A stretch of 45,399 nt of DNA, taken from the NCBI GenBank assembly GCA_013389025.1, contig JACAED010000054.1, positions 1 to 45,399 of the forward strand. The letters run 5' to 3'. Numbering within the stretch: position 1 is the stretch's first letter; each line of letters starts with the position of its first letter. Below are positions 2,981-33,074 of the stretch, piece after piece. The notes under the pieces are model-generated. The model was not told the DNA's origin, did not search any database, and saw only the letters and a list, made by a program, of their open reading frames with translations. Origin of the DNA: Hydrogenophilaceae bacterium (GTDB taxonomy: Bacteria; Pseudomonadota; Gammaproteobacteria; Burkholderiales; Thiobacillaceae). Position numbers and translations under genes: made by a program.

Positions 2981-3184
2981 ATGGAACGCAGAGAAGCGGA
3001 GGCGCAGAGTAAAGGCATAAATTTCTTTATCGATCTGCGTGCGGATTAGAGCAAGCCATGATCGCAAACCCCTCTCCAGGCTTGAGAGAGGATGGGCCCG
3101 GCAAATCGGTCACCTGCTTGAAAGATATTTGAACCAAATTGAAAAGAACATGAGAGGTTTACTCTGCGTCTCTGCGTTCATTAT
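2981..3184. repeat. Inverted-repeat element with CGCAGAG ends (copy 1)
   Basis: The gap between accA and slyD is bounded by imperfect inverted repeats. The left end (2981-3014) reads GGAACGCAGAGAAGCGG and then GGCGCAGAGTAAA. The right end (3158-3184) reads TTTACTCTGCGTCTCTGCGTTC. The interior, about 140 bp, has no convincing ORF. Such CAGAG-rich palindromes are widespread as intergenic dispersed repeats in bacteria; a second member of similar design lies at 38816-38955. The right end stops a few bases short of the slyD stop codon. Confidence 0.6.
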
Positions 3185-7507: not shown

Positions 7508-7932
7508 CGATACAGCAACGCATTCTGCTCGAATTGAACCGGCTTGAGCCTTCCAGATTGCTGGCAACCGATGCGATGGCGCGTGAATTCGCCCGCGCTT
7601 ATGTGGCCGGACACCCGCAATGCGGTATTTTAGAATCGGTACAAGAAAACGCAGACTGCGTGTTAGCCGCCGATATTCTCAGGGACATGGACAAACAGTC
7701 TGCGATTCGCCTGCTTGGCCGATTGATCAGGCAATCGCCGGTTGTTCTGGCCATTGCCCGGGAGAATCATCCTCTGGATTTAAACGATTTCCTTTCCCTC
7801 GGCATGCACAGACTCGCCGAAGCCGATGCCGAAGGCAGGACGTTGTATGGATTCGATTTGCATACCTACAAAACCGTGCCGGACTGGCTGAACGCGAAAT
7901 ACTGGGCGCATCCTGAACGCTGGAAACCTTAA
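7504..7932 (+). CDS. Small protein coupled to the desaturase (DUF6231-like)
   Basis: A 142-aa soluble protein without signal peptide or membrane segments. The pattern (LLELNRLEPSRLLATD..., then VLAADILRDMDKQSAIRLLGRLI, and a C-terminal YGFDLHTYKTVPDWLNAKYWAHPERW) looks like the small DUF6231-type family of gamma- and betaproteobacteria; I am only moderately sure of that. It starts within the desaturase stop (ATGA). Its own TAA stop at 7930-7932 lies at the outer end of a palindromic repeat element that begins here. Confidence 0.75.
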   Translation: MTIQQRILLELNRLEPSRLLATDAMAREFARAYVAGHPQCGILESVQENADCVLAADILRDMDKQSAIRLLGRLIRQSPVVLAIARENHPLDLNDFLSLGMHRLAEADAEGRTLYGFDLHTYKTVPDWLNAKYWAHPERWKP

Positions 7933-8208
7933 GTAACCTCTGATTAAGTCCTCCATGAACCGCGTTTACACGAAAAATGCCAAGCTGCAAGGCGCGCGAC
8001 GAAGGTCGTATTAGACATATGAGGCCGAGGAGCGCAACGCCGCAGAGGGGCATTTTTCGTGTAAACCCTTCGGAGCGGAGCTTTCCGGGCGGTCTGCTTT
8101 GTCGCACTGCTTGCAAATGGTATCGCCATTTTCTGCACATCACGTCGCGCATCCCATCCCTGAAAGCCGACGCCGCGGGCATGAGGGGCTTAATCAGAGG
8201 TTCCTTAA
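7929..8208. repeat. Nested inverted-repeat element (MITE-like) between convergent genes
   Basis: A 280-bp element with terminal inverted repeats TTAAGNAACCTCTGATTAAG (7929-7948 and 8189-8208, one mismatch; the 14-bp core is perfect). Inside it is a second, perfect 18-bp inverted repeat, GTTTACACGAAAAATGCC (7964-7981) with its complement (8049-8066). There is no transposase ORF. The same-orientation sequence CCTTAA flanks both ends (7927 and 8203) and could be a target-site duplication. The TAA stop codons of both flanking convergent genes lie within these end sequences. The nested hairpins could serve as a bidirectional terminator. Confidence 0.75.
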
Positions 8209-8807
8209 AGTTTCCGGCAAGTTTCTTCCATTGTTTTGCGACGCCGTACACCCTGTCTATCTTTGCAATACCCCACTGCAAGCACCAGCGCCGGAGCTTC
8301 GCCTGACGGCAGGCCCAGCGCAGCAACCAATGCGGCTTCATCAAAACCGCCGATCGGGCAGGTCGCCAGACCAAGCGAGCTTGCCTGCACCATCATCTGT
8401 GCGGCGGCCAAATTGCATTGGCCAATAGCCCAGTTGCGGATATCTGATTGTTCATAAAACCCTCGGTAAGCTGCTTTCAATTCATCGGGCACGGGGCCGC
8501 CACCTGCCTCTGCCTTGAGCCTTGCCTGCACATAGGCCGAGTCCGGGTGCAAAGCCTCCACCAGCGCAATGACAGCGATCAGCAAGGGCGCGTTGACAGC
8601 AGGTGGCTGATTGAAACAGGCAGCAGCCACTGCCGTTCTGGTTTCTGCCGATTGCACCACGACAAATTGCCAGGGTTCCATGCCGAAACCCGACGGTGCG
8701 ATAAGACCCGCTTCCAGAATTGTCTGCAAGTCAGCATCCAAAACAAGCTGGCCGGTAAACGACCGGCATGCAAATCGCGCAGCCAGCGCAGAGAGCAAAT
8801 CCGCCAT
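8205..8807 (-). CDS. Nitroreductase family flavoprotein
   Basis: An FMN-dependent NAD(P)H nitroreductase-fold protein of 200 aa. The start motif ALAARFACRSF has the R-x-S phosphate-binding pattern, followed by ILEAGLIAPSGFGMEPWQFVVV, the dimer/FMN motif, and ASSLGLATCPIGGFDEAALVAALG near the C-terminus. The open frame extends to 9281, but that part lies antisense to the SseB gene. The ATG at 8807 has GGAG six bases upstream and gives the family N-terminus; an ATG at 8819 is the alternative. Substrate unknown. The stop codon lies in the end of the repeat element at 7929-8208. Confidence 0.9.
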   Translation of the reverse strand: MADLLSALAARFACRSFTGQLVLDADLQTILEAGLIAPSGFGMEPWQFVVVQSAETRTAVAAACFNQPPAVNAPLLIAVIALVEALHPDSAYVQARLKAEAGGGPVPDELKAAYRGFYEQSDIRNWAIGQCNLAAAQMMVQASSLGLATCPIGGFDEAALVAALGLPSGEAPALVLAVGYCKDRQGVRRRKTMEETCRKL

Positions 8808-21607: not shown

Positions 21608-21684
21608 CACCCCCCTTTATCTAGGGGGGGCTGGTATTTACCACCTTGTCAAAGGGGGTGGCGAGCAAAGCGAGCCGGGGGATT
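21608..21684 (+). repeat. 77-bp palindromic repeat family A, copy 1
   Basis: The general form is: (AAA)TCCCCC, TTTATCAAGGGGG, a short spacer, ACCCCCTTGACAAAGGGGGT, GGCGAGCAAAGCGAGCC, GGGGGATT(T). Here the left part is CCCCCCTTTATCTAGGGGGG, and the right part TTGTCAAAGGGGGTGGCGAG then CAAAGCGAGCCGGGGGATT. It follows ycgR directly and is in the plus orientation like all other copies. Confidence 0.8.
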
Positions 21685-25755: not shown

Positions 25756-25940
25756 GTCAGGGAACCTCCAGGGCAAGAATCGCTCCCCTTGCAAATTGCC
25801 GCCAACCCGCCTTTATCAGGAGGTGGCTGCATTGTTACCCCCTTGTCAAAGGGGGTGGCGAACAAAGTGAGCCGGGGGATTCTTCCGCTATGGAATCCCC
25901 TCACCTCCCCTTAATCAAGAACGGCTTGAGATTCAAATGA
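25752..25940 (+). other. ORF bridging fliH and fliI across a repeat element
   Basis: A 62-codon frame whose ATG overlaps the fliH stop (ATGA) and whose TGA overlaps the fliI ATG (ATGA). It reads through repeat copy 2 in the same frame as the fliP insertion ([13 protein letters not shown]). No recognised domain. It may preserve translational coupling from fliH to fliI. Confidence 0.35.
25804..25881 (+). repeat. 77-bp palindromic repeat family A, copy 2
   Basis: Left arm CCCGCCTTTATCAGGAGGTGG, right arm ACCCCCTTGTCAAAGGGGGT, then GGCGAACAAAGTGAGCC and GGGGGATT. It sits between fliH and fliI. A second fragment resembling the left arm (AATCCCC...CCCCTTAATCAAG) follows at about 25891-25919. Confidence 0.8.
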
Positions 25941-29197: not shown

Positions 29198-29274
29198 AAA
29201 TCCCCCCTTCATCATGGGGCTCAATTCAACCCCCTTGATAAAGGAGGTGGCGAGCATAACGAGCCGGGGGATTT
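29198..29274 (+). repeat. 77-bp palindromic repeat family A, copy 3
   Basis: AAATCCCCCCTTCATCATGGGG, spacer, ACCCCCTTGATAAAGGAGGT, GGCGAGCATAACGAGCC, GGGGGATTT. It is exactly 77 bp, the same length as the copy in fliP, with clear 9-base outer inverted ends AAATCCCCC/GGGGGATTT. Confidence 0.85.
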
Positions 29275-31029: not shown

Positions 31030-31393
31030 CGAAGGTTCGATGACTTCGGATGCGGAATTCGTCCGCGAAGACAACGCACTGGGCCAGCCGCTGTTCAAGC
31101 CGCTTTCCGGACAGGGCGCCGGCGGTGCATCGAACGACATCGACATGATCCTGGACATCCCCGTGCAATTGACGGTCGAACTGGGGCGCACGAAGATCTC
31201 GATCAAGAATCTGCTGCAGCTATCGCAGGGCTCGGTTGTGGAATTGAACGCCATGGCGGGAGAACCGCTCGACATCCTTGTCAATGGCACACTGGTCGCG
31301 CAGGGCGAAGCCGTCATGGTCGATGATCGCCTGGGCATCCGCCTGACCGATGTCATCACGCCTGCCGAACGCATCCGGAAACTGAATCAATGA
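31004..31393 (+). CDS. fliN: Flagellar motor switch protein FliN
   Basis: The lowest C-ring protein. The 129-aa product has an acidic N-terminus and the C-terminal SpoA domain (about 50-118): DMILDIPVQLTVELGRTKISIKNLLQLSQGSVVELN and GEPLDILVNGTLVAQGEAVMVDDRLGIRLTDVI. The ATG at 31004 with AGGAGA upstream is preferred over upstream in-frame starts inside fliM. Confidence 0.96.
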   Translation: MEATMENGSEGSMTSDAEFVREDNALGQPLFKPLSGQGAGGASNDIDMILDIPVQLTVELGRTKISIKNLLQLSQGSVVELNAMAGEPLDILVNGTLVAQGEAVMVDDRLGIRLTDVITPAERIRKLNQ

Positions 31394-31830
31394 GAACTCT
31401 GGGATTGGCGCTGCTTCTGACTGGCCTGTCCTCTCAGGTTTCCCTCGCAGCCGATGTCACGGCACAAACTGCCAGCCAGGGGAGCGTAACGACTGCCGGC
31501 AGCCTGTTCAGCGTGCTGTTCGGCCTGATCGCCGTGATCGCCATGATCGTCGGCCTGGCCTGGATGGCGCGTCGTATCGGCGTGACGCGGCATCAGGAGA
31601 ATGCCCTGATACAGGTTGTTGGTTCGACCTCGCTCGGTGCGCGTGAACGCGTCGCCATCGTGCAGGTGCAGGATTCGTGGATCGTCGTGGGCATTTCGCC
31701 CGCCGGACTCAGTTCGCTTGCCACCCTCCCAAGGGGACACGTGGAACAGTCATCCGGATTTGCCTCGCCTGCTGGATTTGCGGGCAAGCTCAAGGTCATG
31801 CTGGAAGCACGTGCAAAAAATGCTCAATAG
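31390..31830 (+). CDS. fliO: Flagellar biosynthetic protein FliO
   Basis: A membrane protein that helps assemble the FliP/FliR export gate. The 146-aa product has a signal-like N-terminus (about 1-20), one TM segment (about 40-60) and a cytoplasmic domain with [38 protein letters not shown], typical for FliO. It overlaps fliN by 4 bases (ATGA), and its stop codon contains the fliP ATG. Confidence 0.93.
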
Positions 31831-32677
31831 AATTTCCCGACTCGGCTTGTTCCGCATCCCCAAATCCCCCTTTATCAAGGGGGACTCATTCCACCCCCTT
31901 GACAAAGGGGGTGGCGAGCAACGCGAGCCGGGGGATTTTGCATGGAAACCAGCTCTCTTCATGACAGGCCTGCTGCTACCCGCTGTCGCCTTCGCCGCCC
32001 CGGAAGGTCTGCCCGCGTGGACCAGCACCCCCACGCCGGGTGGTGGTCAGACCTATTCGCTCAGCCTGCAAACCCTGCTGCTGCTGACCTCGCTGACCTT
32101 CCTGCCGGCGATGCTGCTGATGATGACCAGCTTCACGCGCATCATCATCGTGCTGTCGTTGCTCAGACACGCCCTGGGCACGCAGACCTCGCCGCCCAGC
32201 CAGGTGCTGATCGGGCTGTCGCTGTTCCTGACCTTCTTTGTCATGGGACCGACGCTGGACAAAATTTATACCGAGGCCTACCAGCCTTATTCCGAAAACA
32301 GGATCGGTTTCAACGAGGCCATCGACAAGGGTGCGGCACCGCTCAAGGCCTTCATGCTGCGCCAGACGCGTGAAACCGACCTCGCTCTGTTCGCAAGGCT
32401 GTCGCGAGCGCCGCAGATGAACGGCCCGGAAGATGTTTCCATGCGCATGCTGATACCCGCTTATATCACCAGCGAGCTGAAGACCGCTTTCCAGATCGGC
32501 TTCGCCGTGTTCATTCCCTTTCTCATCATCGACCTGGTCGTGGCCAGTGTGCTGATGTCCATGGGCATGATGATGGTCTCGCCGGTCATGATCTCGCTGC
32601 CGTTCAAGATCATCCTGTTCGTGCTGGTCGATGGCTGGGCCCTGCTGATCGGTTCGCTGGCAAACAGTTTCTTATAA
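31820..32677 (+). CDS. fliP: Flagellar export gate protein FliP carrying an in-frame repeat insertion
   Basis: FliP forms the core of the export gate. The body is canonical: [57 protein letters not shown] and four TM segments. The expected start is the ATG at 31820, inside the fliO stop (ATGCTCAATAG), giving 285 aa instead of the usual 245 or so. The extra residues come from repeat copy 4, which encodes K15-F40 ([20 protein letters not shown] then REPGDF) in the middle of the signal-peptide region: [11 protein letters not shown] before it and [16 protein letters not shown] after it. Restarting at M48 (31961) would give 238 aa with a very short signal peptide without a basic n-region. Confidence 0.93.
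31862..31938 (+). repeat. 77-bp palindromic repeat family A, copy 4, inside fliP
   Basis: AAATCCCCCTTTATCAAGG then GGGACTCATTCC, ACCCCCTTGACAAAGGGGGT, GGCGAGCAACGCGAGCC, GGGGGATTT. It has the full 77 bp with both outer inverted ends. It is the best preserved copy and is translated as part of fliP without a stop. Confidence 0.9.
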
Positions 32678-32966: not shown

Positions 32967-33074
32967 ATGCGCAAGGCGACCCCCCACCCACCCCCCTTTA
33001 TCAAGGGGGGCTTGCTTTGTTACCCCCTTGAGAAAGGGTGTGGCGCGAAGCGCCGGGGGATTTCATCGCAATGA
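32967..33074 (+). other. ORF bridging fliQ and fliR across a repeat element
   Basis: A 35-aa frame (MRKATPHPPPFIKGGLLCYP...) that starts 4 bases after the fliQ stop, reads through repeat copy 5 and stops with TGA overlapping the fliR ATG as ATGA. Mostly repeat-derived; more plausible as a coupling ORF than as a functional peptide. Confidence 0.35.
32988..33063 (+). repeat. 77-bp palindromic repeat family A, copy 5
   Basis: CCCCCCTTTATCAAGGGGGG, spacer, ACCCCCTTGAGAAAGGGTGT, GGCGCGAAGCGCC, GGGGGATTT. The inner GCGAGC motif is shortened to a perfect small palindrome (GGCGCGAAGCGCC). Its end GGGGGA lies 10 bases before the fliR ATG. Confidence 0.8.

Follow-up and report, generated by a model that had tools for sequence, protein, structure and literature searches.

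How a palindromic repeat came to lie within the open frame of fliP, and whether FliP carries its translation, is the question raised by the 45.4-kb stretch of DNA analysed here (the window), which is one whole contig of a draft assembly (G000; 1.84 Mb, 109 contigs, 75% complete). The source of the window is a metagenome-assembled genome (MAG) of Thiobacillus, a sulfur-oxidising bacterium, of which G008 (a draft of about 60 contigs, 96% complete) is a congener; the closest named relative in a scan of relatives was QR_Bin.5, a MAG of Thiobacillus sp., whose fliP sequence is the same as that on contig C54 of G008. An explanation that we regard as fairly probable is that the insert in fliP belongs to a palindromic mobile-element family, as one of its short copies without the nuclease, and that the family is translated within host proteins and spread by DUF559 proteins. 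An earlier interpretation made from the letters of the window (the sequence-only reading) had described the insert, overlooking the left arm of the element, the rearranged copy of the congener and the link to DUF559 nucleases.

The repeat at the fliO-fliP junction

The fliP frame begins inside the fliO stop (ATGCTCAATAG) and stays open, from 31820 to 32677, across the repeat at 31862-31938 (Table 1), as the sequence-only reading had stated. That reading had also taken the repeat for a complete 77-bp unit; the core is indeed in frame, but the element extends further, a probable left arm at 31828-31861 adding to its length. When this stretch was aligned with the reverse complement of the element's GGCGAGC..GCGAGCC arm, its score was equalled or exceeded by 2 of 2000 shuffles, and 32 of 2000 shuffles scored as high as its alignment with the left arm of the G008 fliP copy. 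Because the stretch resembles the element arms, the 11 residues that it codes are mostly non-native, and the proposal that the 11-residue stretch ahead of the repeat is the native N-terminus of FliP was rejected.

Table 1. Features of the window referred to in the text.
Feature	Position	Strand	Basis or remark
fliO	31390..31830	+	NCBIfam FliO TIGR03500; stop overlaps fliP start
fliP frame with N-terminal extension, 285 codons plus stop	31820..32677	+	NCBIfam fliP TIGR01103, 302 bits, residues 88-284
ATG within fliO stop, favoured fliP start (codon 1), kept in G008	31820..31822	+	sequence
Probable degenerate left arm of element	31828..31861	+	local alignment versus shuffles
In-frame TTG, alternative fliP start (codon 10)	31847..31849	+	sequence
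Element core, two hairpins, in frame in fliP	31862..31938	+	blastn, hairpin pattern
In-frame ATG (M48, codon 48), alternative start, very short signal sequence	31961..31963	+	sequence
Further element copy	21611..21684	+	blastn; intergenic by simple ORF score
Further element copy	25804..25881	+	blastn; intergenic by simple ORF score
Further element copy	29198..29274	+	intergenic by simple ORF score; between ORF ending 29068 and fliL
Further element copy	32992..33063	+	between fliQ and fliR; includes GTG at 33038, a possible fliR start

The claim of an in-frame insertion is borne out by the other relatives, as the window element is missing from all 28 of their fliP loci that were read. In the fliP 5' ends, whose comparison had been suggested as a check, 19 of the 27 measurable relatives have an in-frame ATG 43-55 residues ahead of the conserved FliP motif, and the remaining eight have GTG/TTG starts only, or ATGs at 29, 33, 61, 82 or 88/35. 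FliP proteins of the relatives without the element are predicted to carry ordinary short signal peptides. For 80 further fliP loci, the element was present in QR_Bin.5 alone among the matches listed (24 starts and one unusually long match). At the fliO-fliP junction of a genome from another genus of the family (G029, L060), a different palindromic repeat (CCTGTAGCGCAGGCGTCCCGCCTGTGCTACAGG) lies in frame in the n-region of the signal peptide.

In QR_Bin.5, the repeat occupies the same place in fliP, rearranged but open, and the G008 copy aligns best to the window element on the opposite strand. We read these copies as one old insertion with a right arm that was exchanged afterwards; the element would have entered between fliO and fliP in a common ancestor of G000 and G008, its partial exchange coming later. 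FliP is under purifying selection while carrying the element, as seen in the 237 codons of the core (G000 versus G008; dN 0.047, dS 0.79, dN/dS about 0.06), and over 40 aligned codons of the extension dN is 0.54 and dS 0.70.

The in-frame ATG, GTG and TTG codons of the extension are codons 1, 10 and 48 in G000 and codons 1, 25 and 45 in G008; M1 and M48 had both been recognized as candidate starts, and the TTG at codon 10 had been missed. If translation of FliP began at M48 or at a different internal codon, the repeat would be a mere leader between fliO and fliP, a reading with which the ATG at codon 48, the almost free evolution of the extension codons and, in G008, a TTG (codon 25) inside the element and preceded by AAGGAG are all in keeping. 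We nevertheless judge it improbable. M48 lies 39 residues from the conserved motif (M1 lies 86 residues from it), short of the 43-55 residues of 19/27 relatives, which weakens this codon as the main account of the start, and it would leave a signal sequence without a basic residue; moreover, the ATG at the fliO stop is present in both G000 and G008, its frame surviving a net difference of seven codons (285 versus 278), and an internal start in fliP leaves the inserts in PurL, PpsA, ValS, TrpC, RecJ and LipB, described below, unexplained. Translation of fliP most likely starts at the ATG that overlaps the fliO stop. The extension would then be a long n-region ahead of a normal signal-peptide core, and signal peptidase would remove it together with that core. 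Two more FliP-like genes are found in G000 (C17:4319-4870 and C33:19568-20179, with 55% and 49% identity to the window FliP), so the window fliP need not be essential.

The repeat family and its copies inside genes

The window repeat is not a product of chance: comparison with its own genome gave 55 blastn pieces (E <= 10), and searches for the hairpin pattern CCCCTTNNNNAAGGGG gave 35 hits in G000 and 53 in G008, with 0 and 0 for the reversed control pattern. At E 1e-4, G000 and G008 have many matches each, G005 has two and G004 a single one; the remaining five genomes of the genus have none. The merged pieces correspond to 31 repeat places in G000 and 31 in G008. The copies suggest the layout AAATCCCCCC-AA-CCCCCCTTTATCAAGGGGGG-spacer-ACCCCCTTGATAAAGGGGGTGGCGAGC..GCGAGCCGGGGGATTT, in which two hairpins would be flanked by inverted ends (AAATCCCCC..GGGGGATTT). 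Copies are frequently half units or mosaics, including tandem mosaics and exchanged arms, and 205 of 372 frames of element copies are without a stop. Across the window, Rfam at the gathering threshold returned two tRNAs and nothing else.

REP/REPIN sequences with their RAYT enzymes also combine short palindromes, mosaics and a dedicated single-domain enzyme matched to the repeat type, and the present elements, being similar in size, hairpins and mosaic arrays, could be imagined as REP/REPIN-like and moved by a RAYT (Y1) transposase. This is very unlikely, since Y1_Tnp had no match in either G000 (75% complete) or G008 (96%), both of them rich in copies, although 7 of the 12 genomes searched have one.

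In the rest of the window, the sequence-only reading had placed the repeat between genes. This agrees with a simple ORF score for the window copies starting at 21611, 25804 and 29198, but the copy at 32992-33063 extends over a GTG that may be the start of fliR, and beyond the window the same element lies in frame in PurL, PpsA, ValS, TrpC, RecJ and LipB. With such hosts, removal with a signal peptide, which had been offered to explain why the fliP insert survived, loses its place as the main reason. The fli operon of G008 contains element copies also upstream in the operon and downstream of fliP. Elsewhere in the window, two inverted repeat pairs were observed, one of 39 nt (7919-7957 / 8180-8218, 85% complementary, 222 nt between) and one of 33 nt (2996-3028 / 3143-3175, 73% complementary, 114 nt between).

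A genome-wide count, which had been recommended, puts 13 of the 62 places of G000 and G008 in frame in genes, ten different ones: FliP, PurL, PpsA, ValS, LipB and MutL in G000, and FliP, MutL, TrpC, RecJ, an MmeI-like methyltransferase and an FGGY kinase in G008. MutL of G000, identified by alignment to its G008 counterpart, is split over two contig ends, the frame across the gap not being covered. Among the places listed, we saw none in which a copy interrupts an ORF out of frame, the other 49/62 being classed as not gene-breaking by a crude codon score and not by gene calls.

Congener alignments covered purL, ppsA, valS, recJ and trpC, leaving out the MmeI-like and FGGY cases, and in these five genes the empty sites are clean. 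PurL, PpsA and ValS contain the element in G000 only, the other six aligned genomes being empty in each case, and PurL and ValS gave one strong match each in G000; RecJ contains it in G008 and G005 and is empty in five other aligned genomes; and loop A of TrpC is empty in G003, G030, G001, G023 and G010. On PDB homologues, the inserts map between residues 358/359 of PurL, 532/535 of PpsA and 151/152 of TrpC, with a looser alignment for ValS and RecJ. mutL is under purifying selection with the element present (dN 0.063 and 0.114, dS 0.83 and 1.00 for the two halves). The element codons of RecJ differ between G008 and G005 at 1 of 39 nt, compared with 26% divergence for the gene (P about 1e-4), so this site would have been re-entered or converted.

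Judging from sequence, the inserts are likely to be translated, unspliced mobile elements. That they are assembly artefacts of draft metagenome genomes is hardly credible: G000, G008 and G005 (about 190 contigs) are drafts and some copies terminate contigs, but the same sites are filled in separate assemblies (fliP in G000 and G008, recJ in G008 and G005), and in G214 a contig as long as 3.8 Mb has a DUF559 unit (see below) within the YgiQ frame.

DUF559 nucleases and the repeats

One DUF559 gene of G008 sits between two copies of the window's element. The family (PF04480) is represented by 11 genes in 6/12 relatives and has a match in 129 of 300 genomes of the order. Ninety-nine DUF559 loci were compared (39 returned by searches, 20 picked for long frames and 40 from the rest of the list), a sample that is not blind and leans toward high-scoring, long-frame cases. 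C/G-run palindromes are present within 400 nt at 71 of the 99 loci and absent at 28, versus 0 of 105 fliP flanks, and a control region 600-1000 nt off the same loci contains them in 4 of 89 cases. In a motif-free test, inverted 11-mers were shared between the flanks of 16/37 DUF559 loci versus 2/105 controls. Repeats of the window's type (type A) accompany 14/14 DUF559 genes with an F[YNK]RQ[KR]P-like motif, which was chosen after inspection, versus 0/85 others. In the DUF559 tree, which is based on few columns, the type-A label requires 2 changes (shuffled mean 13.3; 0/500 shuffles as low), and 13 of the 14 type-A genes are on one branch (SH-aLRT 93), L246 being separate on a long branch. These counts show that DUF559 genes are flanked by palindromes of the window's general kind and that one clade pairs with the window's repeat type.

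Foldseek searches with the AF2 model of a type-A partner (pLDDT 89.8) retrieved a putative endonuclease (3hrl, E 2.2e-5), which we take to be a DUF559 protein, and I-Bth0305I (3r3p, E 4.7e-5), followed by two mitoribosomal chains and by Vsr (1cw0, E 0.04); the DUF559 partner is predicted to have a Vsr-type homing endonuclease fold, like I-Bth0305I. A Caulobacter DUF559 protein is described as inducing the SOS response in cells without cytosine methylase (PMC12907096). In G000 and G008 (L238/L239), a DUF559 gene is located between what appear by eye to be trpG and trpD. An E. coli DUF559 gene (L335 1821-2050), presumably ycjD, has a TMECO-pattern match 195 nt downstream, none being expected. 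A plasmid collection contains 31 records with a relative of the nuclease, and in each of the five inspected by eye, the E. coli one among them, the gene has repeats with C-runs or G-runs beside it, on one side or both, which is a lead and not a count.

DUF559 is also found in one frame with host families (NCBIfam, Pfam), namely AsnB-like (L275, L270), YgiQ (L277 and L264, the upstream part of the latter host gene lying beyond the available stretch), MetG (L285, L286, L287, L290), MnmG (L288, L291), LipB (internal in L279, at the end in L289), HsdM (L281), TrpC (L242), HODM-like (L292), DnaG (L280), TatD (L276, at the end) and BioA (L241, the upstream part of the gene being off the contig), and it forms an N-terminal extension of SdhE (L236, L237), PrmC (L283) and MiaA (L293). 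Inside metG, mnmG, lipB, ygiQ, the asnB-like gene and trpC, the in-frame units comprise DUF559 plus repeat. The domain scans of long-frame loci left out L278, L284 and L294, and no fusion rate is derivable from them because many DUF559 loci were chosen for long frames. The long frames of L273 and L282, in which the scan gave DUF559 alone, were treated as spurious fusions. At L236/L237 (G004, G007), the DUF559 unit lies between the end of an sdhB-like ORF (by eye) and SdhE.

Some inserts lie midway in well conserved enzymes, and one could think of their removal at the RNA or protein level, or of their bypass by the ribosome, in the manner of an intron, intein or bypass element. We give this only a slight chance, as the ORFs read stay stop-free and in frame through the inserts, which removal would not need, and as the scans of DUF559-bearing ORFs (NCBIfam, Pfam) found host domains and nuclease families only, with no intein or splicing family beside DUF559.

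Short repeats and DUF559 units occupy the same loops in two enzymes: in loop A of TrpC, G008 has the window element, G000 has another C/G repeat and G004 has a DUF559 unit (about 199 residues), and one loop of LipB is occupied by the short element in G000 and by a DUF559 unit in L279. In the mechanism that we favour, the DUF559 protein would nick or cut DNA at the target, and repair of the break would copy in the element, whether or not it carries the nuclease gene; gene-breaking copies would be lost, so that the copies surviving in genes would be those in frame in loops, linkers and ends.

These common landing loops, as well as the match between nuclease clade and repeat type, speak against the palindromes having spread otherwise (by gene conversion, template switching at hairpins or an unknown transposase) with DUF559 genes as passengers that settle in or beside them. 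We think such passengers somewhat unlikely, and several observations do fit them: the half units, tandem mosaics and exchanged arms, the 28/99 DUF559 loci without such repeats, and the many type-A copies of G000, a 75% complete assembly in which DUF559 of another kind only, and no type-A nuclease, was found (G008 has one). Returning to spread by DUF559 proteins, a wider proposal may be made, tentatively: DUF559 nucleases and clade-matched C/G-run palindromes may together make up a single, widespread class of mobile element in bacteria, one that homes into coding sequence and is retained, translated and unspliced, in essential proteins, and the triplex-motif repeats that abound in many bacteria may be its nuclease-less offspring. 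Our confidence in this class is lowered because the DUF559 sample was not blind and 28 of its 99 loci are without repeats.

Comparison with known systems

The likeness to the in-frame palindromic elements of Rickettsia that the sequence-only reading had drawn holds for behaviour. In a review, Rickettsia palindromic elements (RPE) are likewise described as short palindromes that sit within the frames of unrelated protein genes and give stop-free peptides, and their frequency in Rickettsia genes is called unusual (PMC10969869). The element described here differs in belonging to free-living Thiobacillus, in its shorter C/G-run hairpins and in its candidate nuclease partner, and it is likened to RPE by behaviour, not sequence. 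Intrastrand triplex motifs (TM, TMECO and PIT elements) share with it a C-run/G-run hairpin plus a third G-run, the run order seen in our copies, and are linked to variable loci; TMECO is reported to lie between genes in every case in E. coli K-12, without a tie to mobile elements (PMC4666352), whereas the present element is often inside genes.

Among free-standing and Vsr-type homing endonucleases, I-Bth0305I has the catalytic domain that the predicted DUF559 fold matched. Similarly, the ShiLan insertion element of a phage methylase gene is unspliced and stop-free and comes with a nuclease, which in its case is out of frame (PMC11855218), whereas DUF559 is read in the host's own frame. DUF559 differs from both in being flanked by palindromes, which in many copies also occur alone. 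In-frame MITEs, e.g. QMITE of Coxiella, are short non-autonomous repeats sometimes fused in frame as well, with other sequences and, in the pages available, no DUF559 partner described (PMC5896051). Among the open-access papers listed by our searches, none was seen to describe palindromes together with DUF559, or Thiobacillus repeats that lie in frame, and none of the DUF559 papers listed is, by its title, about repeats or mobility.

In-frame palindromes in core genes were known from Rickettsia. Those described here belong to a free-living bacterium whose sister species have empty sites, and a candidate enzyme goes with them. Should the link to the enzyme hold, it would explain the spread of abundant C/G-run palindromes, give DUF559 proteins a role and make the question of selfish DNA in proteins testable at the bench. 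Annotators should bear in mind that an unusual stretch in an enzyme can come from mobile DNA. The different inserts that one enzyme loop holds across sister species, in TrpC and LipB, constitute a natural experiment on protein tolerance. TrpC has a second such loop, loop B, which carries in-frame C/G repeats in G008, G000 and G010 (L217, L218; L224/L226 of G010), of differing make-up in the three genomes.
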